Positions 12,623 to 50,166 of a stretch of DNA of 64,000 nucleotides are shown here, piece by piece. The translations under genes were made by a program, and so were the position numbers. The notes beneath the pieces are model-generated. The model searched no databases, was not told where the DNA came from, and saw nothing but the letters and a program-made list of their open reading frames with translations. This DNA is from Polytrichum commune. Its lineage: Eukaryota; Streptophyta; Polytrichopsida; Polytrichales; Polytrichaceae. The stretch covers positions 43,462,001-43,526,000 of the forward strand of contig OX485804.1 of NCBI GenBank assembly GCA_950295325.1, given 5' to 3'. Each line of letters begins with the position of its first letter. Positions within the stretch are counted from its first letter, which is position 1.

Positions 12623-12979
12623 TTGGACAAATTGACAAGACTAACCAACCCACCAGAACGCCACATAAAGACCCCGCACCCATACATACAATTCCGTAAT
12701 ACATATCACGATATAATCTCCCCCTCAAACCCAATCCACAAAGAATTATATAACCACATACATCTCAACCCAGAACCATCCAATATTCAAAACATGCAAG
12801 AAACATCTCCATACCTATCAAAACAACTCCTCATAGAAGCACTAAGATGCAACGAACCTATAACAAAATATAAAAACCCTACTCCCCCAATACTAAATAT
12901 ACAGACACCACTACAACAACCAAAGTCCCTAACAAACCAAAAAAATACACATCATAACCTGGAATGCCTCTTCGTTTAA
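12623..12979 (+). pseudogene. LINE N-terminal open frame, function not recognised
   Basis: A 118-codon open stretch rich in Asn, Pro, His and Thr, upstream of the endonuclease of the same element. Its composition matches the rest of the LINE coding strand. I see no zinc knuckle or coiled coil, so I cannot call it ORF1 with confidence. It may be part of a single long polyprotein preceding the endonuclease. Confidence 0.4.
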
Positions 12980-13720
12980 TACCGCAATGTCATGCCTACA
13001 AGACCTAGTTACATATTCCCAAATACCTCCATCAATTATCACCATCCAAGAAACTAAACTCTCCGCCACCAAATCCACAAAACACATACAAAACATTTTC
13101 CCACACTACTACAAACTCTTCTTCAACAACACACACAACATCACAAGGATTATACGCCAAAGAATGACATAGAGAGGCTACAGAGGATGATTGCTTATAC
13201 TTATCCATAACAAACACGCATTTCCAGGCAACCTCTCTAAACTACCTACCCCCGCAGACATATCACCATTTCTCCAAATAATCCGAGTAGCAAACCAACC
13301 ACTTCAACCATGGTTCTTAATAAACATGTATATGCCCTCACATGAAGAAGACTTACCCCTCATCCCCAATATCCAAAACACCATAACCAACCAAATAAAT
13401 GTCCATCATGGCCATACGTATATATTATGCGGGGACTTCAACCGTGACGTAGCCTTAATTGGAAGACAAAATTACCAACAAACCACACCACCACAATCTG
13501 AAGATTACCAATGGAGAACATTCACGGATGACCTATAACTAACATATATTTCAACTAACACAACATTTTTAAGACAAGGAGGACACAATTATACACATAA
13601 TAGCCTAATAGACGGTTTCTTCATAAAAAACCTCCCAACAATAATCAATACACTTCCACCACAAACCAAAACATCCATCTCAACTCTGACCACCAACCTA
13701 TACAATTATATATACCACCC
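12950..13720 (+). pseudogene. LINE endonuclease domain (EEP family), broken
   Basis: Signature pieces of an exonuclease-endonuclease-phosphatase domain appear in the right order: ITWNASS (metal-site Asn), IITIQETKL (catalytic Glu), CGDFNRDV (Asp/Asn) and NSDHQPI (the Asp-His pair). This domain nicks the target DNA to start reverse transcription. The pieces lie in more than one frame (breaks near 13170 and 13540), so the domain is not functional as it stands. Confidence 0.8.
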
Positions 13721-14459
13721 AACGCACTAATGGCCAAAACAACATTACACATACCCATGTCACCCCCTAGAATACTAAACCCCATACCTAAGGAGAACCT
13801 CAAAAACTTCCATACGCAATTCTTTGAAACTAACTCAAACCAAATAAATGAACTTACACAACTCCTTGAGCACAATGATCACTTGATAGAGGACCAATGG
13901 CAAAACATATGTACCTCATTAGATGCCTTTATCTCCAACATCTTCACATTGGTCCTAGAAACATGTAGTGCCCCACCTATTTTGACTTTACGGAACATAA
14001 TTGCCAAACAAAGAGGCTACTTATCTAAGAAACCCCAAAAGAAATGAGAAAATCACCTCTCAACCTATCATCTTATCCGAAAACAACATACATTATAAAA
14101 AATAACCAAAACTGAAGAAACCACCCCATTATCACTCAAGAAATTTATAACCATAATCACAGTATTATACATGCGCCCCCTGACCCATCTCTCCCGTATG
14201 ACACATGGATAGAGGACTTAGCCAAAAGAGAAAAAAAAAACTAAAAAAAAAGCCCGAAAAATCACAACAAAATATTCTCTAAAACAAATTAAAAAAACTA
14301 TATCTAAATACCAACAACTTTATGACAAAATTCCAAGAAAATAAATAGAAAAATCTTTAAAAACAACGACACCCCTTTACTCGACTGCTTCTTAGACATA
14401 TTTGACAACATCCTTACAAACCCAAAAGAAATCGCACAAGAAATTCACGCTCAACAATC

Positions 14460-15735
14460 AATTAGCAATAGGCCAACTGTCCCAATATGTCACTACCAAC
14501 CTGATCACTTACAACGTTGCACATGTGGAGTCAGACAATATCCATGGCATGACCTAAATGGCTATACCTTAGAAAAAAGAGGTGAACCACTACCCTCCCT
14601 CCACACATACCTAGACCAAGAAACATATGACATATGCCTCCAACAACTTGCCAACAAAAAAACCCCCGGACCAGATCAAATTCCCAATGCCATACTAAAA
14701 AATATGCCGCCAAGATTCCACACACTCCTCTTCATGTTCTTTACCCATTGCTATAAACAAGAACAAATTCCTAAATCCTGGAAAACAAGCCTCACCGTAC
14801 TCTTGTACAAAAAAGGTAATCCATATCACCTGACCAATTACAGACCAATAGCACTTGCCAACACAATATACAAATTATTTACTAGTACACTTACGAGTAT
14901 CCTCTCGGCATATGGGGAAAGACATCAAATCCTACATGACAATCAAGAAGGTTTTAGAGCTAAGAGGTGCATATCATGACAAATACAAACCCTCATCTCG
15001 GATTTAGAAGATGCTAAATTCACAAGCCATGATATATACATATTATATATAGACTTCAAAAACGCCTTTGGTTCAATTAATCATGCCAGACTCCTTGCCG
15101 TCATGAAAAACCTTAGATTCCCGCAAGATGCCGTAACTCTAGTAAGTAATATTTATTCACAATCCACTACCACACTAGTAGGTGAATACTTTGGTAAAAC
15201 ACAACTAATCCCCATACAAAGAGGAACCATCCAAGGAGATACACTTAGTCCATATCTCTTTCTTATCTTTCTCGAAGTGCTCCTTAGATGGCTACAAGAG
15301 GGAAACAACAAATACTCCTTCAAAACCTTCAATACAAAAATAAGCTCAACAGCCTACGCAGATGACCTAGCACTTTTGACCAACAAACTAACATCCCTCC
15401 AACTTCAAGTGAACAAACTCAACCAATATTATGCATGGGCAGGAATGGACCTAGGAATACCAAAATGTGCAGTCACTGGTTGCCCCAACAAATCGAAACT
15501 AAACCCACTAACCTTTAAAACACAACTACGGGACACAAACAATAACTTCATAAACCAACCAATACCCATACTTAGCCAACACGAACCATATGTCTACCTC
15601 GGAATAAGCCTAGTCCCATCATTACAATGGAAAACGCAAACACACATAACAATGACCAAACTAATAAAACAATATAAATTATTAATCACATGCCCAGCCA
15701 CCATGAAGCAAAAAATACATATGGCGGACAAATAA
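14460..15735 (+). pseudogene. LINE reverse transcriptase domain, one internal stop
   Basis: Canonical non-LTR reverse transcriptase blocks lie mostly in one frame. They include KTPGPDQIPNAIL, a YRPIAL block, LYIDFKNAFGSI, the fingers-palm block RGTIQGDTLSPYLFLIF and the catalytic YADD (15355-15366). One TGA interrupts the frame at 14977-14979 between RCIS and QIQTLI. The frame is lost after 15735 and continues about 45 bases earlier in another frame (15690-15953). Both catalytic aspartates are present. Family: a LINE with RNase H, not the zf-RVT L1 type seen elsewhere in the window. Confidence 0.9.
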
Positions 15736-17062
15736 TACGAGCAGGTATCGCATATAGTTTTTACGCCGTCCCATACTCACTCCCAATCATTAAAAAACTT
15801 GATAGGAAAGTAACCACTCAACACAAAGCTATTTGCGGCCTACCAAAATGTATGTCGAATGCAATTACACAATTACCATACGACATGTTTGGCACAGAAG
15901 CATTCTCACTAAAAAAATGCATACATCACATACATAGGAGAACAACTCATTAACACCTTCAACAACAAAGGTAGACTAGGAAGGATATACAACGGATTAG
16001 TAAAACACATACTCGCCAACACATGGAGGGGCACAAAACCTTACGCGCATATCACACCACGATTGTATAAGATCACCAATCACAAGAACCTTATTCCTAC
16101 TTAAAACAAGTTGTGGAGTCCATCTCAGAAGCACAATAGACAAATTCCCCCTCCTCCCCACACCACTGGAAACAGAATGGATGAGGCAAGCAAGGAATAT
16201 ATCAATAATAACCCCCGCACTATCCTTAAAATATCTACACAAACTAATATTACACAACATAATTGAAATCAAACACAAAACACACCCCAACGGTACACAC
16301 CTAATGACAAATGATGAATTTAAACACTACTATAGCTCACCCACTAAAATAGAAAAACTTGCATTAAACCACGCCAAAAAACTCTTTTGTCAAACCTCAT
16401 GCCACAACCAATGCCCAAATATGTGCTTAACACACACCACACCAAACACCTTAAAAAATGAATATCACATACAAAACCATAGCATACACACAAGGCCGCA
16501 AGAACACAATACGCACCCTCTACCCCCACCACCCCTAGAATACCCAAAACCACCCCTACGCATCTTAAAGGACCCCATACATTTCCCAATATACACCATA
16601 CTTAATGACCGCCCAAGTACATACAAAGATAAATACAAAATCACAAAAAATTCACATCCTACCTATGCCAATGGTCATTCCCAGATGACGAAACTTACAA
16701 CAAATGGGTGCCCCGAAGAGATTTGTTTCCTTGAAACAACCAGAACACCATAAGCCATAATATCCTACTCTTAACACAATACTACACACGGAAACAACAC
16801 CAACACTTCACTACTATACTACGAACAAACTTTAATCAGGAACAAATGAGAGACACCCGATATATACCTCCACCACTAATCATACCTCTATGCCACATTC
16901 TCACCAAATGAATGCAACCCAGAAAACGATATTGCCTACACACAAAACACTATTCAATTTCAACACGGAGTATCCCACGTATACGATAACATGGGCCACC
17001 ACTTGATCACCATTCCCGAACAAAGACTAAAATGGCTATGGGAACTTGATATGGCCGTCAAG
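15736..17062 (+). pseudogene. LINE region downstream of RT, frameshifted
   Basis: Continuation of the LINE polyprotein in several frames. Open stretches at 15690-15953 and 16181-16753 include a CxxxCxxxC-like cluster followed by a Pro-rich stretch. The last recognisable reading, around 16940-17060, runs through a Pro-Glu-Gln-Arg-Leu-Lys-Trp segment. No RNase H motif is reached before the MITE at 17063. Confidence 0.6.
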
Positions 17063-27310: not shown

Positions 27311-28951
27311 TTAGGAAATGAGATTCTGATGACCACTGTTGATGTTGATGTTGTTGTTGTCATCATCCTCGAACATGGCGGGAAGCTCATCCTTCTGGCT
27401 CTTGTTGGATTCATTGGGAAGCGTCGCACTCGCAGACGAGTAAACCCGCCCCAACGCATCTTCAGCCTGCTTCTGCCAATTGGTGGTGATTGTCAAACCA
27501 ATAAGAGACGCGGTCTGCATGAAGACTGCCAGGATCATGCCCATCCACAACCCTAAACCTTTGAGATCATACCCAAAAGCAAGCACAACCACAGAGGGCA
27601 GTCCCACAAGGTAGTAAGCCGCAAGGTTAGCAACGGCTCCAAATGCTTGCCATCCACATCCCCTGGCCACCCCTGACAACACACCTTGCACCGAATCCAT
27701 GATGGCAATTGTTGCCAGAAATGGCATACATCTTGAGACATAATCTGCCACCTCAATCTCACTTGTAAATGCCCAACCCCACAGGTTTCTCCCCATGTAC
27801 AGACCCGTGGCCATTAGGGTTCCCTCAGCCACACCCATGCCAACCCCAATTGCAACTGAAGCTTTTGCGGCATTAGGTCTTCCAGCACCAAGTTCATTCG
27901 AAACTCGAGTGCTCACCGAAGCACTTATCCCAACTGGCACCGTGTAGACGAGAGCTATGGTGGTTAAACTGATAGAAAGTGTAGAAGTTTCCAGCTGAGG
28001 GTTAGGCAACAGCCCTGAGAGGATGACAAGTCCTTCAAATGACCAATACTCCAGGCATATCATCACAGTTGAAGGGATGGCAAGCTTGAAAAAGGCAGGG
28101 AGATCATTGAAAGCTTCCATGGAGAAGGATGTCCATGTTCTTTTACATCTTGCAGAGTATTTAACATACGAGGCTAAGAGCAACACATTCAACCAGTTGG
28201 AGACTCCACTTGCAATGGCTGCTCCCCTGTATCCAACTCCGAATTTGTACACAAGAAGATAACAGAAAGGGATGTGGAAACACAATGTTGCAACGGAGAA
28301 GAGTGCCATGGGAAGCACTACACTCTGTGTTTGGAGGAATTTTACCAACGGTTGAAGCGTTGCAGTTGCAAATACAACTGGAAGCAGCCACCGAGAATAC
28401 ATCCCTGCCATCTCGCAAATCAAAGGATCTTGTCCTGAAAAGCGAAGTACCGGGCCCATGTTCCACCATAGGAATGCAACAGGGAGGCTAACCATGTATA
28501 AGACGAAGATTGCTCTCTGTAGGTAGATCCCCAGCATGTGGTACTGCTTTGCTCCGTATGCTTGTCCACATAGAGTTTCAAGCCCCGATGCCATCCCAAT
28601 TAGCAAACTGTTGCCTGTTACCACTGCGAATGAGCTTGCAATGGAGGCACTTGCAAGCTCCAGTTCACCTAAGTGGCCTACAAACATGTTGGACACCACC
28701 ACTAATGAGTATTGTAGCAAGTTTACACAGATCATTGGGCCGGCTATGTATACCTGCCTTTTGATCTCTCCCCATATCCATTTGGGTGCACATGATGCAC
28801 CTTCGTCACGTCTGCTGATGGAGCGTGTAATGCCATTCGAGAATGTGAATGCATGAGCATGTTGATGTTGTTGCGGTGGGGAAGAAGATGGTTCAGTATG
28901 CGAGATCAGTGGCTCCTGTAATGTATGCTTGATTGCATCATCGTCCCCCAT
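27311..28951 (-). CDS. MATE/DTX family efflux transporter, copy 1 (546 aa)
   Basis: Multidrug and toxic compound extrusion transporter, a cation-coupled exporter of small organic compounds at the vacuolar or plasma membrane. Substrate not predictable. Two MatE repeats (about 75-235 and 295-460) make 12 membrane spans. Family-typical stretches include AGPMICVNLLQYSLVVVSNM, GMASGLETLCGQAYGAKQ, SVSTRVSNELGAGRP and GVARGCGWQ. The N-terminus is hydrophilic and His/Gln-rich (20-45); the C-terminus ends in an acidic, Asn-rich tail (FEDDDNNNIN). No intron, though many plant MATE genes have several. The ATG at 28949-28951 is the first in frame. It differs from copy 2 at 20 of 546 residues (about 96% identity). 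Six of these fall in residues 474-486. Confidence 0.95.
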   Translation of the reverse strand: MGDDDAIKHTLQEPLISHTEPSSSPPQQHQHAHAFTFSNGITRSISRRDEGASCAPKWIWGEIKRQVYIAGPMICVNLLQYSLVVVSNMFVGHLGELELASASIASSFAVVTGNSLLIGMASGLETLCGQAYGAKQYHMLGIYLQRAIFVLYMVSLPVAFLWWNMGPVLRFSGQDPLICEMAGMYSRWLLPVVFATATLQPLVKFLQTQSVVLPMALFSVATLCFHIPFCYLLVYKFGVGYRGAAIASGVSNWLNVLLLASYVKYSARCKRTWTSFSMEAFNDLPAFFKLAIPSTVMICLEYWSFEGLVILSGLLPNPQLETSTLSISLTTIALVYTVPVGISASVSTRVSNELGAGRPNAAKASVAIGVGMGVAEGTLMATGLYMGRNLWGWAFTSEIEVADYVSRCMPFLATIAIMDSVQGVLSGVARGCGWQAFGAVANLAAYYLVGLPSVVVLAFGYDLKGLGLWMGMILAVFMQTASLIGLTITTNWQKQAEDALGRVYSSASATLPNESNKSQKDELPAMFEDDDNNNININSGHQNLIS

Positions 28952-29437
28952 GATGTCGGATGGTTACTGCGATTCCTCCAAATTCCTATGTAACCTATGT
29001 CCAGACTTGATTTGATGTGGTCCTGTACAGAAAATCAATTGTGCAACCAAACCGTCAGAAATCTTTGTCGAACACGGAAAGCATAAAATAAAGGATGGAA
29101 GCCTAACCCACAGAACTCATTTGAAATCTGGAAGTGTAGGAGGATAAGTATCGGCAGAAGCAAAGAGTCGTAACATGCAGAAAGCATTCGGGTACTGATC
29201 AGAGCTCGGAAGGCTATGTTCCGTAGTGTACGTAATTTTGTAAGAACAAGTTAGGTGCCAGTAACCTACAATTGCACTTGTGACCGACAAGATGTTTCTA
29301 GAAATGGTCGAAAAGTCCACATCGAGCTACAACCTACAGGTGGTTGAAAAGGAAGAAAACCAATGTCCATAGATATTGTCGACTCACATGAGAGACCGCA
29401 TCAAGGGTGTTTCATTTTGTAGGCATATGACTTTCCG
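28952..29437 (-). promoter_or_regulatory. MATE copy 1 upstream region, shared by both copies
   Basis: About 485 bp upstream of the start is duplicated with the gene, so both copies probably kept the same proximal promoter and leader. A 67-codon open frame (29117-29320) is also present in the other copy with several substitutions; I treat it as a possible upstream frame, not a gene. Homology stops abruptly at 29437 beside retroelement sequence, so distal regulation may differ between copies. Confidence 0.55.
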
Positions 29438-30193
29438 GAGATGACCTTGAGTGAATGTCCCCCAAGCACCCACGCAGCTAAGTGCGACGCATGCCAACGG
29501 TACTCTAGGAACGATTTGAGGCTAGAGTTGCCGTTGATCCCCCCCCTTCCCCTCACACCATTCAAGATGTGGGGAATTGACTACATAGGACCAACCCATC
29601 CGACATCGCCTCGGAAAATGGCCTACATCATTGTTGTACGAGACTATCTTACAAAGTGGGCAAAAGCCAAGGCTGTGAAGGTAGCAAACGCCGTGACCAC
29701 CGCTGCATTCTTACACGAGTAGGTGATAATACGATTTGGGGTACCAAAGGTATTGGTTAGCGATCGAGGGATCCATTTTTTGAACGAGTTGATTGAAGCA
29801 ATGACGAAGGGTTACGGCATTGAACACCGCAAAGCTACTCCTTACCACCCATAGACTAACGGGTTAGCCGAGAGAATAAACCATATAGGTGTTATGATCT
29901 TACATAAAAAAATTAACGACAACAAGCGGGACTGGGACGTAAAGTTACCCTCCGCATTCTGGGCTTATCGGACGATCTTTAAAGTCACAACAAATCAGAC
30001 ATGCTTCGCCCTCGTGTATGGAATTGAGGTTGTACTTCCGATCGAACTCAAAATCACATTATTGCAAATCGTGGTGGATTTCCAACTGACAATAGCCGAG
30101 TCGTTGTCAGAGAGATTGTTAATGTTAGAAGGCGTCAGCGAGAAACAAAGGCTAAGTATCCAGCATCTCGAGGCGATGAAGCGGGGTGTGTGA
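29438..30193 (+). pseudogene. Ty3/gypsy integrase remnant
   Basis: Single-frame integrase core with two in-frame TAG stops (29720-29722 and about 29852). The end of the zinc-binding domain (CDACQ) is followed by the DDE core: WGIDYIG (first Asp), VLVSDRG (second Asp) and GLAERINH (Glu). After this come the WDVKLPSAFWAYRT and EVVLPIE blocks typical of plant Ty3/gypsy polyproteins. Truncated at its 5' end at the exact edge of the MATE duplication. No LTR, RT or RNase H found nearby. Confidence 0.9.
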
Positions 30194-31467: not shown

Positions 31468-33579
31468 TCATTTGAAGCTTATAAGTAAAAGTTGTGGGTA
31501 TTCAAGTAGAAGGGTGTCTACTGCGGATGACAACCACCAAGAACGAATGACATAGTACTTAATCTCAGCATCATCCATTATTTTTACATCTTTGTAATCC
31601 TTGCAAAGATGTTTGTGTTGAAATTGCAAGGATGGTTTGATATACTTTTGTGTCATCTTATCCAAACTTACAGACCAATGAAAAAGACATGTACGCTCAC
31701 GTGCAACCATAAACAAAGTTGGATCACCATCACCATAAATCATGCTCACCACATTTCAATTAGCTTGAGTATGGTCTGTCATGAACCCTTTGAAGTTTAC
31801 CATTCTCTGCCATTACAGCATTTAAATTTTCCCAAAAAAGACTTTTTGCTGTACCATCCTCAAATTGCATGTCACAACAAGTAATGGTCAACACTTTACA
31901 ATATCAACTATCGTACACATGACAAACCATTGTTGTCCAATCTTTCACACGTTTAACATGCTCAAACATAATCCAAGAGTTCTCCATGTCCCCCCCCCCC
32001 CCCCCGACTTGCATTCTTTTTATAAGCTCCACACCACTGTTTGGAAGATCTACGGACATCTTGAAAACAAACACTTTGTCTTTTGATTGCCCTGGGAACC
32101 GACTGCTATGGACAAACTTGAAAGTAGAATGGTGTTTAAATGCTATAACATTATTCATAGTTCCCATTCTACTACGTACAAAGCGTTGTAATCGAGATAC
32201 AAAATTACGACAATTTGGGGATGCAAGAGTACTGAATTTGTCTATGACCACCTCTAATGATGAACCAACTAGGTGATGGCCTCCACCAATAGTGGGAGAT
32301 TTGAAAAGATAATCGGCCAAGAATTGCTTGCTTGCACCCAAAACTATAGCTGAATTTGTTGCAGTGGGTGTTTTCAATATTTCATTTGCAACGCACTGGT
32401 ATGCCACGTCTAATTATTCACGACATATACCATTGGATACAGGGTGATCATGCATACCAAGATGAATGCAAACCCTTAACATATCAGTAGATGTGGAGTG
32501 GACATAAAATATGTGAGCATAACACAAAGCAATTCACACAAGTGGTGATCGGCATACCTTACATTCAAAAGTGGATCTAGCAGGGGCAACATCACCCACA
32601 ACAAATGGGAGATGAGTTGAACATGTCCACTCGGTGCTATTGTGCATACTTCTATTGCGATGCATGTAATTGCAATGATCATTCTGACATTGGAGATGAT
32701 CTGCACAAGTAGATCGTCAAAAGGACAATCCAAAGTTGTTTGGGATATTCGTGGTTTTGGTGGTACACGAAGGGTGACCATCACACATCTTGTCCATATC
32801 ATCCATTGAGCGGCCATATGCACTTGGAACTCCAAGTGGCACAAGGGGTAAGACAAACAAAATATCACCATCAAAAGAAGATGGTAAGTACTTGACATCG
32901 CAAACAACTATATTCTCAAAATCAATTATGGTAAGATCCGACTTTGATATTTTCCTATACTTTGTAAACTTCAAGGCACCAATGATAGTCAACCCTATAG
33001 ATGAAGGAAAATGGTGTAGTGGAGGACGTTGAGAAGGTGTGTTGTGACAAACAAACTTCTTGTACAAAGGACTGCATGAGGATTTGGATGCATGCAAAGG
33101 GACTTAAAAATAAGTATTTTTAAAAGGAAATGACGATGTCTCCGACATGTCAACGTTTGCATAAATATTATCATCAAAATCTGATAATATACACACAGTA
33201 TTAGCATCAGGCTCCAATTTAACACTTGCAATATTTGGCATTTGAATTGTGGATGCGCCAGATTGGTCTGTCAATACAACAGTTGAAGCTTGCATTTGGA
33301 ATTCAAAAAGACATATCATTATGAATGAACCAAACTCCAAATCCACATTGAACCATCTTCAATTTTATTCTTTTAGATAAGAATTGCTTCACAGACTTGT
33401 CCATCCGCAGAATACATCTCCTGCTCTATGTACATGGTTCTCATTTGGATATTGAACCTCAAACTGAGAAGATCCTCTAAGACACCTACATGACCATCAT
33501 CTTGAAGTGGCAACGTAAATGGAACAAAGGATCCATGAGCTCTAATGGTGGCCATAGAGATCGAATACAATAGATGCAC
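31468..33579 (-). pseudogene. decayed transposase-like gene (DDE type, possibly MULE)
   Basis: A ~2.1-kb coding remnant on -. Blocks at 33346, 33097 and 32407 (starts) share one frame broken by stops; the first (33579) and last (31752) blocks are in other frames. Visible parts, in order: a Cys/His cluster (CxxH...CxxxHCxYMH, near 32660-32700); a second Cys-rich patch (FECKVCRSP); an HLGMHDHPVSNG motif; a long helical middle; CCDMQFEDG with an Asp (about 31860); MIYGDGDP; and RERTCLFHWS with Cys and His. Acidic residues in the latter blocks fit a DDE catalytic core, and the Cys-x-x-His pattern recalls Mutator-like transposases. Family assignment is an inference. A 16-bp poly-C tract (31990-32005) interrupts it as a run of Gly codons. 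Confidence 0.6.
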
Positions 33580-35029
33580 TATACAATATTATTGGACGTA
33601 ACGGGCTCTTTATGTTGAATGTTGTATAATATAATATTGAATGAACTTGAAATGCATGATATCATAACATCTAATAATATACAAATAAACAGCTCACAAT
33701 AACAGCCAAAAAATATTTGTAGACGAAACATAAAGCCTTAAAGCAAAACCCTAAAAATATTCCATTTGAAAATCTAATCATACATAAACCAACCCTAATC
33801 ATACAGAACCCAACCCACTAGTGGGATGTGGATTATAATTTCATCATAACATTCTTTCTAAACAAGACCAAGTGTGCACAAAAAGAAACTTAGAAATACA
33901 AGAAGAAGGATACACGACTTTGGCAAAGAGGAGAAGAAAGAAGAAGGGTTTGATTTTTTCTAGCACGAAGCAATTACATAGGGCCAAAATTAAACGACAA
34001 ATGGGTAACGTCAGTTTATGTGAATCGAAGACACTGCACGCGTACTAGAATTTCATGCAATAGAAGAAAAGAAAATGTTGAAATCCAGACACAAGATAAC
34101 AAACAACCCCTCATTTTTGAAAATGATGATGACAAACGAGTGAGCAACACTGCCAACGATATGTCTGATGCAGAACAAGAAGCAGAATGTACTTTCATTT
34201 ACAATGCACCGGTAAGTTTTTCATGGTTTATTTATAGATGAGGCAATTTTCCAATTAATATACCTCTTGAATATCTAAAGTAACTAAGCATAAAAATTGT
34301 ATTTCTTATGCAAAATTCGATTGTAAGAAATTTAAAAACATAAAACCACATAAAAGAAAATTGGAATGTTATCAATCAAAAATATTGTATGTAGATTAGT
34401 GGCTACTACGTCTAGATTAATGTGATAAGACAACATGTAAACCTTAACCCTAAAAATCAGAAGGAATTTTTCCTTGTTTTGAAACAACTCTTTTCGGGGA
34501 ATTCTTTCTGTTCTAATCCATTTCCATGGATTTTTTTTTGTTTCGATCCACTCGTATGGGGGATTTTTCTTCCGATTTGAATTGTGTCTCCAAGAGATGT
34601 TCTAAAAATAAACATTATTTTGGCCAGAATATTTAAGGGAAATTAAACGTTTTGGAACAGTCAAGAGAGAAGAAAACCATTTCATGAGGGTTGTGCGCAG
34701 GACGCACACGGACTGCAGAGGGAGGAAAACGCTCCAAATGGAGCGCCAATGGAGAAACCAAGTGGAAGAACAATGGCCAGCGCGTTTGCTATGACAAATG
34801 AGGTCCTTCATCAAGCAGCGAACAAACCACCCACATTTGCCAGTGTATACAGAGCGTCCGATAGTAATGATTAAACGATGGTTGGCATGGATGTGGAGTT
34901 GGCAACGCCATCATCAAACCCTTCTCCAGAACAACATGTAAGTTTATTTTTCATTGTATCTATAAGTGTTTTTCAAATCCTAGTGGTAATAATTATTTTT
35001 GTAAATATTTTGAAAGAAAAATTTATTAT

Positions 35030-35780
35030 AGAGGTTTCGGTACCCCTATTCCAAATTTTTCGTTCAAAAAAACACTTATCATTCACCAATTTTATGTTCA
35101 TGCCATAGCTGTTGTTCTCATTTTCTTCTATGCTTATTTCTTCAAAGAAAATTGTGAAATAGGAGTTTCGGTACCAAAACCCCTATTCCAAATTTTTCTT
35201 TCAAAAATTTTTCTACAATTTTTCTACAATTTTTCTACAACTTTTCTACAACTTTTCTACAACTTTTCTTCAGACAATATACTTCTCAGTAAATAATTTC
35301 ATGTTGACGCCATTGCCGGTGTCCTCATTTTTTCCATGTTTATTCTTTAACGAATATTGTGGAATAGGGGTTTCTTTCAAACAATATATTTCTCATTTAA
35401 TAATTTCATATTGATGCCATAGTCGGTGTCTTCATTTTTTTTCCATGTTCATTATTAAAGAAAGTTGTGGAATAAGGATTTTGGTACTGAAACTCCTATT
35501 TCACAACTTTCTTTCAAATATTAAAATTTCTTCTTGACTAATTTCATGTCTATGTTATAACTGTGGCCTTTATTTTTTTTGTATGGCTAATTCTTGAAAG
35601 TAAGTCATGAAATAGGAGTTTCAGTACCGAAATTTTTAATCCATACTTTGAATTTGTTAATTTTAAGTAGAGGGATTAGCCACTACCCTCACTTTCTACC
35701 ATGTTTAATTCTGAAATGAAAGCTTTGGAATTGGAATTTCAGTACCGAAATCCTTACTCCAAAGTTTACTTGAAAATAAA
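35030..35780 (+). repeat. intronic tandem repeat array
   Basis: About five diverged units of ~130-150 bp inside an intron. Each contains GGTTTCGGTACC-like sequence (the core GTTTCGGTACCGAAAC is palindromic), CCTATTCCAAATTTTTC, AATTTCATGTTGATGCCATA and TCATTTTTTCCATG. Within it, a 12-bp unit TTTTCTACAACT repeats about five times (35208-35268). Confidence 0.7.
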
Positions 35781-36479
35781 TATTTCCTTTAGCAAACTAT
35801 TTTTATGTTTTCAAGTCTATATGTGTGTTTTGTATTATATCAAAATGTTGATGGTTATGTCAATTATACGGTCATGTAGGTGGCCTTCATTTATTTTGGC
35901 ATTAAATTTTAAATGTCAAGTATATTTCATTTTATAGTCTAGTTTTTTGTTTATGTGAAGTTGCTTATAATGTGCATTTGATGTTTTGTTGTAGAGTGGA
36001 TGATTATTTGTTGCATGATTTTTTTCATTTATTATAGGCTTTGATTTGACTGTGAATATGTAGGATAACATTTTGGCGGACACCGACATTGAAGAAGCAT
36101 AAAAAAGAAGTTGGACAAAACAAATTTAAACTCTGTCATCAATGGCTTGCGAATTTGACCTCTTTCTAAATTTCGTTTATCCATTCCTATATGCCATTTG
36201 AAGCCATTGCGTTTTAGAATTTGATGTTTAGTGGTTGGAAAATAAAATTTTCAATGAATATAGAGAAGATGATCATGTCTTGTATGTTTCTATCGTCAAT
36301 GATCGTAGGGAGATTTTATGTGTAGCAGAGGACAAGTTGAGTTCTTGGGTTCCAATATGGCAACAAGTAAACGATGTTTTTGAGCAGCCACTTTCCCGAT
36401 ATGAGAATTTAAAGGTTTTTAAAGGTAAAATGTTTTGGGTTTGGGAGGGTGTAGTTAGCTTTTTGGTTACAAACAAAAC

Positions 36480-38600
36480 CCAGGGAAACAATCAGAGAAG
36501 ACTTAAAAGGTGATTTGTACAACACCTAGGTGTCTTAGATAAGATCTATTAGGGAAAACACAAGGGTATATCACTTCACTTTAGATTAAGACTGACAATT
36601 GGTTTACGGGTAAGGGATAAAAACTCTAAAAACCACTCCATGTCAGTACATGCAAAGGTGACAGTCGCTCACCTCATTCTAATTTCCCAGGCGATAGTCT
36701 GGTAGTGAGTTCATTTTAATTGGACCAAGTGCGGTGCGCAATCATAGGACTCGCCATTGACCATAGTCATTTGCAAAAGTAACCCATTTTAGTCTTGCTT
36801 ATCAAAATCGAGGGCACTTTGATATCGTCCATAATCTGGCATTTAATTAATACCTTTTAATTGAACTTGAAATAGGCGGTGCCGTCATCCTCTCAGGATT
36901 GTCGAAGTTCCTTAATTAATCATTTCATTTTAGATGATACTGTCCGACCATAGTCTTTACCGAGTCTTGGCTAAAGTAACAATAACGTCTTTCCTCAAGG
37001 CAATTGATCAAAACCACTTTAACGTTAAAGGAATCATTTCATTAATGATTTACCTTATCCTCAATTAGATTTTAATAATTCAATTCTTAGAGTGGTAATT
37101 TTCCAAAGGATCCTCAATTCAATTAAGATTACAATTAGTCATCAAAACTTACGGATGCCGTAAGTATTGCGGCCTTTGGTCTCCTCCGCAGACAATAGCC
37201 TCTCCCCTTCAATGCTCCATCCTTCATGAAAGGTTAGCGGAGAATAGTTTCTCCATTTACACTACAACGACAATAGACTTTCTTATTTATAACACTAAAC
37301 AACTACATGCAATAATGAACTCAATTTCCTGGATTACTCATCCTAACCTCTCTAAGTGGCATGGATTCTCACGGAGTGGATTCGTTTTTTAGGGACTTCA
37401 ATTGTGATTAACACGAGATCATCTCAATTTAGAATTGAAGTTGATAAATTATCTGGATTTCCGGTGGGAAAACGTTAAGCATTATTAATCAGAAATCATA
37501 AATTTCGGGGCAGAAAAGAGTTTTGTAATTCCACCTACAGAATCCTCTCTATACTCTCGTAGACTACTGATCCAGACGAGTTTCTCTCAATGATTCCAGA
37601 CCGTAGTCTTAGCGGCATTAATTCTCCAGAGACGAGTCCCGGTGATTAATATCAGTGTCTATATTGACTCTCTTTCATTTGGTCATCTGTGGACAATTGC
37701 CTGGAAACAATTGTGATAAGGCCTTTCGATAGATTTAGACAATAGAAGTGATAGGGCCAGATTTCAGAGCATTAGTATTTTGAGCAATCCCAGTAATAAT
37801 AATGAAAACGAACATGATTCCCTGCCTGAACTCTCTCTCGGTGAAACATCCTAATTCAATGTGAGACCTCTCTATACAAAACAAACTATAGACTTATAAT
37901 TTTCCGAGTTCAATAACCCTCTCACTCGCCAGATTCATGCCCAATTGCCTGTGATTATCACACTTCATTCAGGAGATGAACAAACATAGATTTTAGTTAC
38001 TGCAACTATCATTGATATCAGTCCCTTACACAACCCTGATGCAGTAGACTCAGATAATCACTTCCATTTAGAATTAATTAACTATAATTTCCATTTACAG
38101 TAAATATGCCTCACACAATAATTCCGGTGTAAAACCAATACATATCCACACTCACCACCACATGACAATAGACTGTAGATTATAGTGCAATGGAAACATA
38201 GACTTTACTTTCATTAATAACTGCCTTGAGTGATATGGGAACTCAAAATACATTCACAGATTCACACAAAATATCAAGGACAAGTTCCACAATAAATTCA
38301 ATCATGTAATAATTCAGGCAATTCGAACTCCGCAGATTTTCTGTTCACCTTCGGCTCTCCCAGCCTAGTCTATTCCTTGCCTGCTACAGAAGGCTATATT
38401 CACCCAAGAAAAAAAACTCTCTATTCCAAGACAACCACCACAGCCTTCCTCCTCCCAGACAATGGCCTCTCTCCTTCTCTGAAGCCTCCTAGCATCAGAC
38501 TATAACCCTTGGCAATTACTTTTTTGATATACCAGACTATAGCCCTATTCGTATTTACTGGTTTTCATTTAAGAAGTCTAAAAATAGTTTGTTTCTCACT
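36480..38600. other. insertion-like block of distinct texture in the gene
   Basis: About 2.1 kb without exons separates two coding blocks. It is unlike the AT-rich introns around it. Motifs of the form GACNATAGNCT/AGACTATAG recur at least 15 times (for example near 36766, 36945, 37190, 37268, 37738, 38166, 38459, 38530). I could not find terminal repeats or a protein. Possibly a non-coding mobile element inserted into the gene. Confidence 0.45.
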
Positions 38601-40804
38601 TGAACATTGTTTTTGCTTTGAAAAATAAAAAATTATCATTACAGAGGGTAACCACCAAGTTACAACATAGAGACGGCACATAAATAAAGTTCATGCTGAT
38701 GAGGAAGAATGACATTATAGTGTGGATTGTATATACCTTAATGCGATGGATGCGACTAGCGTTCTTTTGGATACCATGAATGACTTCAATATGTAAGGCT
38801 TGAAGCCCATTGATTTCAAATTTTTTTGGTCAAATACATTGAACCTTATATTTATAAATTTATTTTGTTGAATGGCAGATTCATGGAAAATAATCACGTT
38901 ATGGTTCATAAAATCCATCTCATTCAGAGTTTTGGGACTTTGAAGCTACAAGAATTTAAAAATATTTTCTGTCCTAATGATTATGCTAAATGCGAGAAAA
39001 AACATCCATTGACTACATGGTATCCTCTTACTGTAGATATTTTTACAAGTTTCATCTAGAAGATGAATCTTTAACATTTCAATGTCTACACCAATTTTAT
39101 GTTCTTACATTAAGTTATTTTAGTCTTTTAAACTAAAAAAATTCAATATTGTTTTTAGCGTAATGTTGTGGCAACATTAGAAGAGGTGCGTCGTGAGTTT
39201 AGAGACAACACTTCATTGGCCCAAGATCTCCTAGGCTTGAATTGGAGGCAATAGCAAATGCAATGAGAAAAACAATGAGGGCATGTAGGTCAAAGGAATT
39301 TGATAAACTCCTTGCAGTTGCGGATCCCGCAAATGACGTTGATTTTGTGAAAGATGTAAGTATTTACATTATTCGTTTGATTTTATAATATATTTTGTTA
39401 TATTGTGTATTTTATATTCAACGTTGTTTTCATTGTTTTTAAGTGAATGGGCATTGGAGAAATTGCAAAAAATTGCAACAACTCCGGTGGATAGCAAGTA
39501 TAAAATGAAATGGTTGCAGTGGTGGAATTCATTTCTGATGACACATGAGACTTTACGTCTTTTGCCATCAAATTTTATAGACAATAACCTTGATTTGTGG
39601 TTGGTAAAAACATCATTTTGGGCCCAGATAATATTATGAATTATAATTGTGAATGCATTTATGCTTATGAAAACATCATAATTATTATATAGCATTTGTA
39701 TTTATTAAGATAGTTATTTGACATACATTTTATGTGTGAATTCTAATTTTTAGTTGAAGGAAGATGCCATCTATAAGTTTCATGACATTCTACCACAATT
39801 AGGTGATGTGGTTTGGGATAACGTCCTCTGAATTGGAGGTTACAAAAGAAAATGACATTGTCTTCTTTAGAACAAAACGTATACTCCAATGTTACGCGGT
39901 TCAGCGCCATTTGCAAAATCCACAATATTAATGAAGAATCATGAAGGCAAATTGATAGTAAAATATGTGATATATAGGTATTTTTCTACATTTGACTATT
40001 TTGAAATAATAAAATTTATCTCCATTGGTGATATTGAACTAAACTTGTTTATTGAATTGATGTAGGTACCTAACAAGGGAGGTTGAATCCCAAAAAGCAA
40101 TTTCATTGCAAGCATTACCTTCATTCTTGAATTCATGGGCTGACAGGTCAAGTGACCAAAACATATTTTCAGCCTTGCAGTTAATATTGTGGACTCATAA
40201 TTTATTGGTTCATTGTCCATGGTTTATTTAATGTCCAATAATTTTCTATCCCGCTGAAGAAAAAACTCTTAGGTTTTCAATGGAGCCATCACAACTAATG
40301 GAGGAAGAACTTCATGAGAAGCAACAACATGTTGGGAAAGGAGGTAAATGTAAACGGAAAGCGCATGCTAAACCAACACCTTATGTACTGCGAAAATGGT
40401 TTTACCGTCGTCACCACCGATGTCATCTGTACCAATGCCACAAAACAATAAAAACAATGTTGATTTGTACGTTGATGATATTGTATTAACTCTTAGACCA
40501 CCCCAAGTTGTTCTTACTTCAACACCTTCAAATTATATTTTCGAATCTCAATATGTGGTTGTTGAAGCTTCTGAAGGATCCAATATATACAAAGTTTTTA
40601 CGTTTGTGAAGAATAAGTTCATATCCAATATGTTAGAGAATGGTGCAATCGATAACCTAGTGTTGCTATATGCGTTTGAATTTGTCAAAAATGTTAGTGA
40701 ACTTGAACAACATCATTTAATTTTGTATGTTTTTGTATATTTTTGTACTTGAAAATAATTTTTTGTTGTTTATGGAATTCTAATGTTTTTTATTTTTATT
40801 TTTA

Positions 40805-41826
40805 GGTTGGCCATGCTCGTAAGACTCGTGTTTCGTCCGAAATTTGTAAATTTGGTGGATTTGATCTTATCATTGCGGATTTGCCAGAGGGTCTACATGT
40901 CCCGAATGTATCTTCTCCTTCAAATTTAATTCCATCTTTGAATGCACACAACTTAAAAGATATAGAAACTTTGTTTGAGTTTGCAGATGGTTTTTTTACT
41001 AATGATGCTCCATTGTTATTATTTCTTCTGGAGTTTAAAATAGTTAGGGATGATGTTAGGGCATATCCTACTTCATATGAATTTGCATTGGTAAATGATT
41101 GGTGGGCAATAAATAAATTGCCATTGTATCTGCCAACAGACATAAAATTTACGGTACACTCCTATCTTAAATCTTCAAGTATTTTTTTCGAATATGTGTG
41201 GATTATATTTGTTGTTTGATATCATGACAAATAACTATTTTCTATAATGAGGATACAACATTGTATATAGACTCGACGGTTTCGGCTCATGATGTTCTTT
41301 CGATTGGAGCCCCGTCCACAATTTGTTTTCAACAAAGTGGGTGGTCTATTTCCAATGGAAGTGGGGGCCTTAGATATCTTCTTCAATCGTACTACGTCCA
41401 AGACTCAATTAATGCACGAAAATATCCCATGGAGAGGAGCACATGAAAAAGATACAGAGTCTTTGCAATTTCTTATTGAAACATTGACTAAACCATGAGA
41501 TGTTATCCTTTATGTTTATGCATCTAGAGGTTAGAAACATGTTTTTTTTGTAAGTTTTAGAATTTAAGTCTTTTCTATATGACAAATATGTTATGATATG
41601 CATAATTATATTTATTGCAGGTGCATTTATTCATGCTTGCCGTTGTAGTGGCCGACACCTTGTTGCATTCGAGAGAGACTCGGTAATTTTCGACGCAATA
41701 TTAGCCCCTTTCTGTGATTCATTGCCACCTCTTATTGTTCATGGCTTGCAATCAATTAACATGGCATGCGAAGATGATGATGAGCCTATTTGGAAAGTTC
41801 CAAAGAAATCTTGCTTCAGTGCGTAA
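40805..41826 (+). pseudogene. beta-class DNA methyltransferase-like domain
   Basis: Three exon-like segments. Segment 1 (40805-41153) has FDLIIADLPEG, the counterpart of DPPY motif IV, then a hydrophobic strand (LLLFLLEF). Segment 2 (41255-41530) reads through EPRPQFVFN and ends near DVILYVYAS after one in-frame stop. Segment 3 (41622-41826) gives GAFIHACRCSGRHLVAFERD, matching the glycine turn, helix and acidic end of motif I/II. The family methylates the amino group of adenine or cytosine in DNA. Here the missing Tyr of DPPY and the stop argue for loss of activity. Other possibilities: a related RNA methylase fold, or a captured domain in a transposon protein. Confidence 0.5.
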
Positions 41827-42130
41827 TTTTGTTGGTTTGAAGGATTTTAAAATTTTGGTTTTCTTGTGGACTATTTAGTCTTCCACCAATTGTTTCTAAC
41901 ATTTTTTGATATTGTGTGTAGAAAAATGAAGGAAGCGATGTTCCCCCCTCATCAATTGATTCTCCCTGTGTATGCCGAGTCTGAGGCGATACGGTTAGCA
42001 ACCGTCATTATACCTCTTAGGCGAAGTAGATCTAAACATTATGATCTTTGTATCTTGACATTCATGAATATAGAGGCAAAGGAATGTAATGTTCGTGTTT
42101 GTAATGATAAGGAGAATAATAGATAATAGA

Positions 42131-43587
42131 TAATAGAATAGAATAGAATATAAGTGCATAAAGAGGTCTTGCACATGACTTGGTATATATGTGCACATGT
42201 TTTTTTTTGGTGGCAATTATCTAGTTTTTATAAAATAACCATTAAGAGTGGACATTGATTTGTGTGACCATTGTCTAAAATCCCTAAACCCTAATGATTT
42301 CCACAACATCATTGTTTTATAGCTTCCTTCATTGTTTTAAATGTTCATATGAATTGGAGCAATCAATTGGTAGGTTAGTTTTCGGCATGTAACATGTGTT
42401 GATGTTTGAGCTACAAATATGTGGTAATAGGATACCAAACCCACGGTGATAGGTATGTTTCTTGAAATTTTCTCACCCTAATCCGCTCATTAGTTATTGC
42501 TCACTGGTCATCGCTCATATGATAGCGCTCCTCGGTTTAAACCTAGTGAGGGGCCCAAGGCTCTCAAAACTAAATTTTTATGAAGTTGGACCATTGACAA
42601 AGGCCATCTTCCATGGTCCGACTTCATAGTCCATAGTGTAAACCGCTTAATTAAAGGTAAAGGCTAAGATAAAGGCTTCTTGTGGAAGATCCATGGTATT
42701 ATTTGGATCCATAACAATGTTCCATGGGATTGATAGTATTCTATGAAATATTCCCACATTCAGTCTGAATATGAGAATATTTTGTGGAATATTGTTAGTC
42801 CCATAGAACATTGTTATGGATTTGAATAATGTTATGCCTTCAACACTTAGATTGTTGTGGTACTTGCAATTGTGTGTGAAGGAGATTGAAACATATCAAT
42901 ACCAATTTAGAGTTTTGTGGGAATTTTCCATGAATTTCCAAACTCCATATTTTTTTGTTGATAAAAGATTAGCCAATATGGGTGCATTCACTTTCAAATT
43001 GAGTTACATGCCTTCATGACATACAATTGTATGCTAGACCTAATTCAACCAAATTCTAGATTGCATACGACTTTGGAAGGTGAGCAACCATTTCAAAATT
43101 TGACCAGGCCACTAATCAACCTTGAAGTAGATATTCCATCATCAAAGATGTCGGATTAAGACATGACTACTTTAAGGTTAAGAATCTAATTCATTTACCT
43201 ATCTTTAAGTGGTGGGTGGTTAAGTGCCCATCTAAGAACAAACACCAAAGAGACAAAGGTTTAAAGCGATTGGACTAGGTGCCTAGATTTGTTAAAACCG
43301 TTCTAGACTTAATAGTCAACATAGTTAGGGAGGGGGGGGGGGAGCTATGTGAACTTTGAAAATTTGTAAAAAATCAAGATTAGCTCCAAAGTTTTGTGAG
43401 AATGATCATGGCTTCTTCATATACATTTGCAGACACATATAACTTTCAAACACAAGAAAAATTAGGTAAGATACAACACGAAATAACCCAAATGAGACCC
43501 ACCAACTAAAAAATATAGTAACATAATTTTCCATGTAGATTCCATAATAACATGCAAAGGATATTATTGTCTTCCAATCAGCATGTA
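42131..43587. other. intergenic with one foldback MITE and repeat R
   Basis: No gene seen. Contains the element at 42692-42836, a repeat R copy at about 43195-43330 and an 11-bp poly-G tract (43332-43342). Confidence 0.5.
42692..42836. mobile_element. foldback MITE, family F (copy 4)
   Basis: 145-bp palindrome from CATGGTATTATTTGGATCC to GGATTTGAATAATGTTATG, with inner arms ATAACAATGTTCCATGGGA and TCCCATAGAACATTGTTAT and a CCCACATTCA centre. Confidence 0.85.
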
Positions 43588-47010: not shown

Positions 47011-47799
47011 TGTATTTGAGGGGTAGACATCTATCAATGTTAGTGATTAGTGGAATATTGGGGGTTTGGGTGATTGGGTGGTTGGGTGGTTAGTGGATGA
47101 GGGGGATATGTGAGTTTAGACCAATTTATACTACAATAAACTGGGGTGTCTTGCGGTGTAGGTGGTGTGGGTTGAGTGAACGTTGCGGATATTTGTAGGG
47201 TGTTAGCAATATTGTACATCTATTGGATATATCATTTTCATCCAGTGGGTGTGTCTTTGTGGTGGACACATACAGTGTATATGGCGCGACTTTCTATTCT
47301 AGGTTTGGTTCGTAGTTCTGGTGGGATTGTTGGTTCTTCGTATGTGATGGTGTTAGCTTTGAAGTGTGCGATAACATGTGAGTCTGGAAAATGTCCTTCG
47401 TGGGGGTTGAGGTTATAATACCAATTCTCGTTTGGTGTTACGAGGATTGTAATTGTGTCTGGGTTATTTTTGGATGTGAGACGTGCCCAATGAAGGGCTT
47501 GTTGGGCTTCTTTTTCCGTGTGTGGGTGTGCATATCCGTGTCTTTGCCATTTGTACTGGAACGATGTGCCTATTGATCCAAAAACTCAATCTCGGGGAAA
47601 TGGAGAGTAGAATTGTTTAAGTATGGTGGAACATGTTATTGGTGATGAAAAGTAGGAGTGTGGAATTTGGTAAGAGTCTATAAAGTGTTCAAGGATGGCC
47701 TTTGGGAGCGTGTATTGTGAAAGTTGTAGGGGATTATTTTTGGAAGTTCTATATTTATATCGTTGAATATATATTGATATGGCCAACAGTTAAGTTACT

Positions 47800-48000
47800 T
47801 GACCTTATGATATAGGTGAATGGAGTTAGGGATGCACACCTTGGCCGCGCTCCCTCCAACCCTAAATGGAAGTCCAGGGTTAGATAATTTACCTTAATTA
47901 TCCTCGGTTGATTCGGCTCGATGTAGGCCGAGCCGCTACCTCTTTGCTCCACTTCCCGGACATTGACCTTGTCTTCTTCCTTTTAGCTATCCAACTTCCG
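47800..48000. other. short GC-rich spacer
   Basis: Clearly more GC-rich than its surroundings, with a short inverted motif TCGGCTCGATGTAGGCCGAGCCG (47911-47933) able to form a hairpin. No protein recognised. Confidence 0.35.
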
Positions 48001-48600
48001 ACTTAAAAAATTCATAGTAAATTCATTACTACTTAGATCTGGGCTTTCCATATACTATTGAAAAGTTATTAACAAGATTTAATTTTAAAAAATATGATAT
48101 CAGCAAGTTAAGCCAAGATGAATCCAGCAGACTCCTTGTAATACAACAGTCAACCATGAAGTCTTAAACTACGTATTCCGTCTTCAGAAATTCGTATCTA
48201 ATTCATTTATTATTCAAATCAAATGTTCTTAATAACCTTGGTAAGTTATTAACAAGGTCTATTTGAAAAAAATATGTTATTAGCAAGTTAAGTCAAGATG
48301 AATGCAGCAGACTCCGTATAATACAGCAGTCAACTAGGAAGTCTCAAACAACGTATTCCGCCTTCAAACATTCATCTCTAATTCATATCCACTCAAATCA
48401 AACGTTCTAAACAATCTTGGAAAACTAAAATAAATATCTACTTGGAAAAAAATATAATTTTTCAAAATTAAAATTTGTATTGGGCAAGCAAATCTAATTC
48501 AACACCCACTACCCAAATAAACACCATGTTTTTTTATTCCATCTTTGAAAATTCATAATTAATTGCTACCTTAACCAAATCACAAATGGAAAACGGCTAC
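48000..48600. repeat. ~180-bp satellite-like tandem repeat, about 3 copies
   Basis: Landmarks recur at a 180-bp step: GTTATTAACAAG (48066 and 48246) and AGCAAGTTAAG (48102 and 48282), with AATTCAT..TCAAATCAAA blocks between. A partial first unit precedes and a strongly degenerate third follows. The period is near nucleosome-repeat length, as in plant satellites. Confidence 0.8.
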
Positions 48601-50166
48601 CGATAGTTATACAAAAAATTTATAGGAAAAAAATGATAATTATTTTGTTCGAGATCATAAACTAAGCGCACAAGCCTTCGGCGGCTGAGGTCTACAATGC
48701 CTCCACTTGCAATCATACAATCTAACCTACCTCTACAAAAGAAATGAAGAATTTTTTGTATGTTAACAAACACACATTCTAACTAGGAGAGATAGTAGAG
48801 GATTTCTCAAGCCTTGTTATCAAGCCATTGAGAAGGCAAGCTAGAAGTTTTTTCTTAACTACATAGAAGTAGGGCTTTGCCAAAACATTTAGAATAAGAG
48901 AGATAGTATAAAGTGAAAAGAAGGGGTTTTTAAATCCTTTCAAAAAATGATTGGACCACTCCGCCACCGGCTTTATTCTTCGAATACTTTCCCAAAATTT
49001 AGGCTCGGGATTTTTCCTGTTGAGGTTGTCACCCTCTCGCCAAGGTGGCTACGACGGGAGACCTTAAAAATATTTCTAAATTTTTTCCATCCAGTTGGCA
49101 AGGGGCAAGTAGCCCCTTTGTTTTCTTTCTTTTTGTCTTAAAAAATCGTCATACCGATTTCGCCTTCTTATACCAAACACCTCCAATTGTTTTGTGTGGC
49201 CCATATAAATTAATAAACTAATATTTCTTTAGCTAGCATCTACTAACTTAAATCTTAGCTAGTTGTTTTTACTAGCTAGCATGTTTTTTCTACTTTGTTA
49301 TTTTCTAATACTACTTTGTTTTCATTTTGGCCAATCTTACCCTTCACTAGATTTTTGTTTCTTCCGGTTGAAGGCCCGAAGTGCTCGGTAATTTACCTTC
49401 CTTCTTCTAGGCTAAATACTAAATGAACTATTTTTCCCTAAATTCCCTATCAATTCTAAATTTGAATACTAGCATCCTAACTAAAAGTGATCCCGCAGAG
49501 TGGTGGACCACTCTAGAGGTTCACAAGAAATGTGAATGTTATTTCAATATTCTTAGAAATAAGAGTAATATTTTGTGTCATTGTTGGAAATTATCATAAG
49601 CATGTAAGTCAGTTCACTCAATCGAGACTAAGAGTGAAGGATGATTGCAAAAGAAAAATGTAATAACCTTGTGATGGACAAATGGTCAAATGTTAGTAAG
49701 GCAAATATGTGATCAAAGGATGTGAAAGAAAATGTCAGTGAAGGCGGATAGCCTTTTGCAAGAAACCAATAAAAGAAGAGTGCAATATTGAGTCCAAGTT
49801 AGGCCAGTGATTGGCGGAGTCAAGTTGCCTAAGGATTTGGTAGTTAAGAAGAGTATGAGAGAAAGAAGTCGTGAGATTAACTTATTAGGCAATAATCTTA
49901 GAGTACGACACTTAGCTAAGAACATGTCAGTGAGAGCAATAATCCTAGGATAATTAATCAAGAGGACAATGATCCATAATTATTCAAGAAGGTAATTAGT
50001 CCAAAAGAGCCCATTGTTTATTGAAGTGAGAAGGAACCGAGGGGCTTGTGAAAGGCCATAGCCTATGAGGTAGAGAAATCGTCAAGTGTGAAGCGAGAGA
50101 GAATGAGGCGTGGGATGGGCAATTAGGAATTGAAGAGTCAATAGAGATTGAGAAAGGCGATTAGCT
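48601..50166. other. intergenic, no gene recognised
   Basis: No gene or element with definable ends. Sequence texture changes near 49500 to a purine-rich stretch (GAAG/GAGA rich) continuing to the MITE at 50167. Confidence 0.5.

Follow-up and report, generated by a model that had tools for sequence, protein, structure and literature searches.

The 64,000-nucleotide stretch of Polytrichum commune DNA analysed here (the window; C2:43462001-43526000 of the assembly) holds a decayed copy of a DNA transposon. In this copy, a transposase gene on the minus strand and an intron-containing accessory gene on the plus strand point away from each other, and the accessory gene ends in a methyltransferase-like domain. 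The initial annotation had marked these two divergent readings, and both exist. The minus-strand block has homologues in other parts of the genome, in the form of long transposase-like frames, and the proposed plus-strand exons match three conserved methyltransferase exons (MT1 to MT3), in which motif IV precedes motif I as had been noted. To these readings we added the right end, a ParB-like exon and intergenic repeats (∼35.0-35.8 kb). Relatives used for comparison include six element copies, e10-e14 and e16, which were assembled with their flanks so that the ends could be read. The copy in the window is made up as follows.

31521-42533, no strand: decayed transposon copy, left end lost; homology to L010-L012 runs from 31521-31525 to the right terminus
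31525-33555, minus: remains of transposase exon 1, frame broken; DNA identity 73% to e13/e14 and 83-85% to e10/e12
31904-32413, minus: 169-residue open piece of transposase exon 1, with at least 150 scored places in the genome
35009-35782, no strand: repeat units between the genes; degenerate palindrome cores (≤2 mismatches) start at 35165, 35478 and 35618
36105-36450, plus: first part of the ParB-like exon, with one frame shift; tblastn with the e12 exon matches 36105-36209 and 36211-36450 at 76-77% identity
36451-38643, no strand: nested insertion of ∼2.2 kb in the ParB-like exon; homology to e10/e12 breaks exactly here, with AGGGT on both sides
38644-38790, plus: remainder of the ParB-like exon (GNHR motif region), 80% identity to the e12 exon
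38877-39071, plus: conserved accessory exon B, 68% identity to e12
40806-41156, plus: MT1, the first of the three methyltransferase exons, with motif IV (DLPE) at 40878-40889
41271-41531, plus: MT2, covering the region of motif X and the beginning of motif I, 86% identity to e12; a stop and a changed motif I here
41620-41757, plus: MT3, second half of motif I and end of the next acidic strand, 83% identity to e12
41923-42120, plus: C-terminal exon of the accessory gene, 80% identity to e12
42506-42533, no strand: right terminal sequence, with subterminal TGAGCRRTGA repeats

The right end, read as its reverse complement, is GAGGAGCGCTATCATATGAGC and matches the right ends of other copies. Transposase exon 2, with its SWIM-like end, is absent because the left end has been lost. 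The window copy is dead, since its transposase is truncated, its ParB-like exon is interrupted and MT2 is disrupted.

To find relatives, we searched one 408-Mb assembly, nearly all of which lies in seven contigs of 42-78 Mb. The MT1 exon (window 40806-41156) yielded 1003 candidates and the 169-residue transposase piece yielded 1426; the best 150 of each were scored, and places in such number rule out chance as the source of either reading. A third query, the ParB-like exon, was taken from L070. Among the best 150 transposase places, on which the pairing counts rest, 87 have a ParB-like exon within 10 kb, and the two are divergent in 87 of 87 cases; random placement gave a mean of 1.1 and a maximum of 4 (300 draws). 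In the MT1 count, which used 148 of the 150 scored places, 23 have one of the listed transposase places no more than 12 kb away, and 20 of these pairs are divergent, with the genes ordered as in the window (500 draws of random placement gave a mean of 1.3 and a maximum of 5). Adding 21 previously found MT1 pairs brings the paired transposase places to 102 of the best 150. Two more accessory subfamilies contributed 9 divergent places out of 15 (the Z family) and 6 out of 11, which may overlap the 102. Comparison with random placement thus rules out that the two genes are chance neighbours.

The ends of the relatives bear on the same point. These elements are 11.1-12.7 kb long and consist of a two-exon transposase gene and a divergent, intron-rich accessory gene. 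Their termini start with GAGGGAAGC and GGGGAG and then run into TGAGCRRTGAGC repeats; the left and right termini are imperfect copies of each other, agreeing at 17-22 of their 28 outermost bases in five elements. Exact target site duplications (TSDs) surround both genes in e13 and e14 (9 bp each) and in e12 and e16 (10 bp each). Both ends of e11 were read and show no TSD, so that four of the five elements read at both ends have one; the left end of e10 lies outside the assembled sequence. Because of the common ends and the TSDs in four elements, together with the repeated divergent pairing, the transposase and the accessory gene are one transposon family. The proposal that both belong to a single element is therefore borne out, intact relatives with the adjacent divergent pair having been found in the genome. 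That two unrelated repeat families merely lie side by side has nothing in its favour beyond the decay of the window copy and, against 87 divergent pairs where chance gives 1.1 and against the shared ends and TSDs, its probability is negligible.

In many copies, exon 1 of the transposase gene stays open for up to 742 residues. By eye, the transposase shows a D...C-x2-H block and a CxC...CKH end, with an NLAE block lying in exon 2. The CxC...CKH end alone has support from Pfam, and this is weak: the SWIM profile PF04434 matched a 98-residue piece with an E-value of 0.0087 and 16.0 bits, below the cut-off of 19.6, and did not match the whole transposase protein. In the family search that the initial annotation had proposed, the transposase domain of Mutator-like elements (MULEs), PF10551, matched none of the transposase pieces in Pfam. 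An hhalign comparison with PF10551 MULE proteins of the same genome gave a probability of 0.1, from shallow profiles of 4 and 3 sequences. MULE transposases commonly have a SWIM zinc finger close to the C terminus, and some MULEs lack terminal inverted repeats. The TSDs of MULEs are given as 8-11 bp (PMC6446971), a range that includes the 9-10 bp of the four elements. Our best guess is that the superfamily is probably Mutator-like. For the transposase, 'undescribed transposon type' was too strong a term, as TSD length and the weak SWIM match point to Mutator-like elements. The accessory module is undescribed as far as our literature searches reached, no description of this element having been found in the open-access literature.

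The accessory gene has conserved exons from the ParB-like exon through the three methyltransferase exons. A search with the Pfam profile N6_N4_Mtase, suggested for the exons in the window, gave matches above the 26.7-bit cut-off in the relatives L074 (1.1e-7), L075 (1.5e-8) and L029 (3.3e-6) and just below it in e13 (25.6 bits) and L005 (26.0 bits). The domain also matched PHROG 3008 (2.4e-7) and DpnA (4.9e-6), and CcrM aligned weakly (0.023) along the whole length of the domain, placing DLPE on DPPY. The motif order is permuted, with the catalytic motif IV before motif I, which binds S-adenosylmethionine (SAM). Among phage genomes, 156 records matched, and in 9 of them the match spanned 80% or more of the domain; the top matches were annotated DNA methylases at 18-20% identity, with weak E-values (≥0.03). 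One scan of viral contigs with alignment A3 returned 78 pattern hits and no confirmed relative. Judged by these alignments, the methyltransferase-like domain is real and derived from a beta-class N6/N4 DNA methylase. In L074, a 577-residue open frame (2227-3960) spans the entire domain without introns.

We label the N terminus of the accessory protein ParB-like by eye. A single motif, [ED]GNHR, is invariant in three aligned subfamilies, and the ParB_N family has a motif of the DGxHR type. The ParB-like exon had no support from Pfam, PHROG or PDB; across the assembly, PF02195 matched on the small contigs C12 and C23 only. BLASTP between L074 and L076, a bacterial fusion protein, gave no significant match (E 0.041). 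Matches to ParB_N and N6_N4_Mtase occur on the small contigs C10, C12 and C23, which resemble residual bacterial DNA in the assembly and include L076, a ParB-methylase fusion with DPPY.

To characterize the catalytic site, motif IV was read in 71 copies (47 + 2 + 2 + 20, from separate readings). It is D[LI]PE in 44, DIPD in 9, QFPD in 2, DIPY in 1 and something else, mostly decayed, in 15; the canonical [DNS]PP[YFW] occurs in 0 of the 71. Copies within one subfamily are not independent, and about 10 subfamilies agree on a non-canonical motif. In subfamily Y (L070 and L071), the motif is QFPD, the first Asp having been lost. In the Z family, L074 alone has DIPY, and 9 of the 10 copies read have DIPD. 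Working base methylation by the accessory protein is doubtful on this reading of the motif. Of the suggestion that the element carries its own DNA base methylase, the methyltransferase fold stands and the base methylase is not supported, the motif being non-canonical in 71 of 71 copies. For the same reason, evasion of silencing through added methyl groups, as first proposed, is not our first choice.

We then estimated nonsynonymous (dN) and synonymous (dS) divergence from 33 of the 47 sequences of the largest motif reading, in seven hand-made groups; L051, L052, L055-L058, L061, L064-L069 and the window copy (14 sequences) were left out. Between subfamilies R and S, dN was 0.157 and dS 1.377 (dN/dS 0.11); between V (e13, e14 and e16) and X (the window copy and e10-e12), the values were 0.25 and 1.579 (dN/dS 0.16). 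For other subfamily pairs dS was mostly saturated, and within subfamilies dN/dS was higher, at ∼0.3-0.6. The accessory protein is thus long kept by purifying selection, and the low dN/dS between subfamilies indicates that the changed motif was kept with it.

The space between the two genes contains arrays of palindromes. In X elements these are perfect 36-bp palindromes (TGGAATAGGGGTTTCGGTACCGAAACCCCTATTCCA and variants) ∼136 bp apart. The Y elements carry 28-bp palindromes (AAACCCTGTGCGTTAACGCACAGGGTTT; core GTGCGTTAACGCAC), mostly 64 bp apart, with 12 copies in L070 and 22 in L071 (≤4 mismatches), and in R a near-palindrome (GTGTCTCGGTGCCGAGACAC) repeats at a spacing of 295 bp. A core, GTYTCGGTNCCRARAC (≤2 mismatches), is common to the three subfamilies X, R and V. 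Its counts are 7, 5 and 10 for e10, e11 and e12 and 3 for the window copy; e13, e14 and e16 have 3, 4 and 3 sites, and R copy A has 23, of which 6 fall in introns of the accessory gene. Shuffles gave an expectation of 0-0.15, and no core site was found in L070, L071 or 48 kb of control window DNA. For the window element, 20 Markov shuffles gave 0 core sites against the 3 observed; a search of this copy for strict palindromes (arms of at least 10) found none. L029, from another accessory subfamily, has one 26-bp perfect palindrome (GTGTCTGCCAAGATATTGGCAGACAC) at 766-791, as a single occurrence.

Genome-wide, the stricter pattern GTYTCGGTRCCGARAC gave 494 and 471 matches on the two strands (reversed control, 0), and the Y palindrome gave 215 (control, 0). 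Location was examined for 50 of the 215 Y sites and for 75 distinct core sites. Of these Y sites, 28 lie between a transposase place and a ParB-like place, 16 have only a ParB-like place within 8 kb and 6 have neither; the core sites form 14 clusters, of which 11 have a listed gene place no further than 10 kb away and 3 have none. Comparing subfamilies separates the two genes. X and Y have transposase cores that are 92% identical (202 residues), yet their methyltransferase domains are 28% and their ParB-like exons 46% identical, and their palindromes are unrelated. X and R, by contrast, have transposases 68% and methyltransferase domains 42% identical, and they have the palindrome core in common. 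The palindromes are thus shown to follow the accessory gene rather than the transposase. This contrast suggests that it is the accessory protein which reads the palindromes, and that the gene and its array have been exchanged as one module between transposases.

The account we favour, to which we give about even confidence, is that this is an autonomous, probably Mutator-like family in which a methylase-derived accessory protein binds the element's own palindromes and regulates the element. The protein would combine a ParB-like N-terminal region with a C-terminal domain of methyltransferase fold and would no longer be mainly a base methylase. Its predicted targets are the palindrome arrays of the subfamily to which it belongs, and it would probably bind them as a dimer. 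Through this binding it would control its own element, most likely by maintaining expression or by keeping host silencing marks away, as the VANC protein discussed below does. A second possible output of the same binding is autoregulation of the shared promoter region. More tentatively, and by analogy, a bacterial-type ParB-methylase may have been turned into a self-recognition system, its fold having traded the catalytic motif for sequence-specific recognition of the subfamily's own arrays, with gene and array forming a module that moves between closely related transposases and each subfamily lifting silencing only from itself.

Several observations weigh against this account. In most copies, SAM motif I keeps its last glycine and the next acidic residue, so that SAM binding, and hence some activity, may persist. 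In Pfam, the accessory exons, L074 and L075 gave only N6_N4_Mtase and hits below the cut-off, and the ParB-like label comes from the GNHR motif read by eye and the analogy with bacterial fusions. The core pattern was fixed after X, R and the repeat unit of V had been seen and is not an independent prediction. A generic scan for palindromes (arms ≥12) was clearly enriched only in X and Y, with 4 sites against 0.33 in R and 2-4 against 0-1 in V; in R, the two central base pairs of the motif are not palindromic, and in V the motif is an imperfect palindrome. The short Z-family stretches examined contained no core sites or strict palindromes, and the co-variation of palindrome and accessory gene was observed over four subfamilies.

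The same evidence bears on what else the accessory protein could be. It may act on the palindromes as a transposition cofactor or as a repressor of the shared promoter, shaping the transposition complex or limiting copy number, with no role in host silencing. Most of each array occupies the space between the divergent genes, which must contain both promoters, and extra open reading frames are described in many MULEs (PMC6446971). However, the arrays are internal rather than at the element ends, and the 6 of 23 intronic sites in R copy A would better fit a chromatin-type target than a single operator; we regard this explanation as somewhat unlikely. A protein that is an active N6-adenine or N4-cytosine methylase, marking the arrays so as to mimic or block host silencing, is less probable again. 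Its fold and SAM-binding motif I are kept, selection on it has been strong, one copy (L074) reads DIPY, and active C5 methylases encoded by retrotransposons are known (PMC5890265). Against this stand the absence of [DNS]PP[YFW] from all 71 copies, the loss of the first Asp in Y, and the DIPD of the sister copies of L074. In a bdelloid N4 methylase, moreover, changing SPPY to APPA abolished activity (PMC8885841).

A captured passenger gene without function is very improbable. Capture of gene fragments is described as frequent in MULEs (PMC6446971), and the window copy is broken; yet dN/dS values of 0.11 and 0.16 between subfamilies rule out a passenger, and the same divergent place has been kept in ∼10 subfamilies. 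The protein that binds and regulates its own element remains our preferred account, and it lends itself to experiment: protein and array differ together, with natural swaps beside a near-identical transposase, and specificity is therefore directly testable.

The window has other features outside the element. A repeat at 47789-49525 recurs beside element e14 with 75-81% identity. At 27311-28963 on the minus strand lies an intronless 550-residue open frame that by eye resembles a MATE-type transporter, and at 29423-30193 lie readings that by eye, from the motifs GIDYIGP, LTKWAKA and TNGLAERIN, resemble a Ty3/gypsy-type integrase. Strand asymmetry is strong at 12001-16000 (GC skew −0.54 and −0.35, AT skew ∼0.29).

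Parts of this arrangement are known from other systems. The domain has the fold of beta-class N6/N4 methylases (CcrM, DpnA and phage enzymes) and their permuted order IV-X-I, and it aligns with them over its whole length; it differs in having D[LI]PE, DIPD or QFPD in place of DPPY/SPPY, and in being split by introns and carried on a eukaryotic transposon. The bacterial ParB-methylase fusions (L076, on the small contig C12) likewise have a ParB-type region first and an N6_N4 methylase last, but L076 has a clear ParB_N Pfam hit and DPPY, whereas the ParB-like region of the transposon has no profile support. In the bdelloid N4CMT paper, no homologs from eukaryotes are reported for the N6_N4 enzyme that it describes (PMC8885841). 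The transposon-borne protein adds a eukaryotic branch to the N6_N4 methylase fold.

Transposons with genes related to DNA modification have also been described. DNA methyltransferase (DNMT) genes are carried by retrotransposons of dinoflagellates and charophytes, although these enzymes are C5-cytosine methyltransferases, shown to be active, and the elements are retrotransposons (PMC5890265). Fungal TET/JBP DNA transposons carry a DNA-modification-related gene that has moved between transposon lineages, but theirs is a dioxygenase rather than a methylase fold, and the elements are fungal and belong to other superfamilies (PMC12730594). The Mariner elements of giant viruses are DNA transposons with a transposase and a methyltransferase, the latter of the Methyltransf_26 or C5 type, accompanied by an endonuclease and found in viral genomes (PMC3627910). 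In a survey of MULEs, the word 'methyltransferase' is absent from the main text, which lists SET-bearing Phytophthora MULEs (PMC6446971), and a word search of a 2026 review of gene capture gives 0 occurrences of methyltransferase, methylase and ParB (PMC13317346).

A close parallel is with the VANDAL elements, MULEs of Arabidopsis whose VANC protein binds motifs in tandem repeats and causes loss of methylation (PMC5735166, PMC10398659). The target motifs sit both upstream of the transposase gene and within introns of VANC itself (PMC5735166). In both systems, an accessory gene stands beside a conserved transposase that is more conserved than the accessory protein. The tandem repeats that VANDALs have at these two positions change fast, and in the present family motif arrays lie between the genes and in introns, where they may serve as targets. 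The proteins themselves differ: VANC has DUF1985 and DUF287 (PMC5735166), neither of which is among the Pfam hits of the accessory exons scanned here, and the present system has a methyltransferase fold and palindromic motifs, its anti-silencing role being proposed by analogy. The family is thus a second candidate for self-marking by a plant transposon, independent of VANC and built on a different protein. If the account is correct, VANC-like anti-silencing was reached independently, from a DNA-modifying enzyme.

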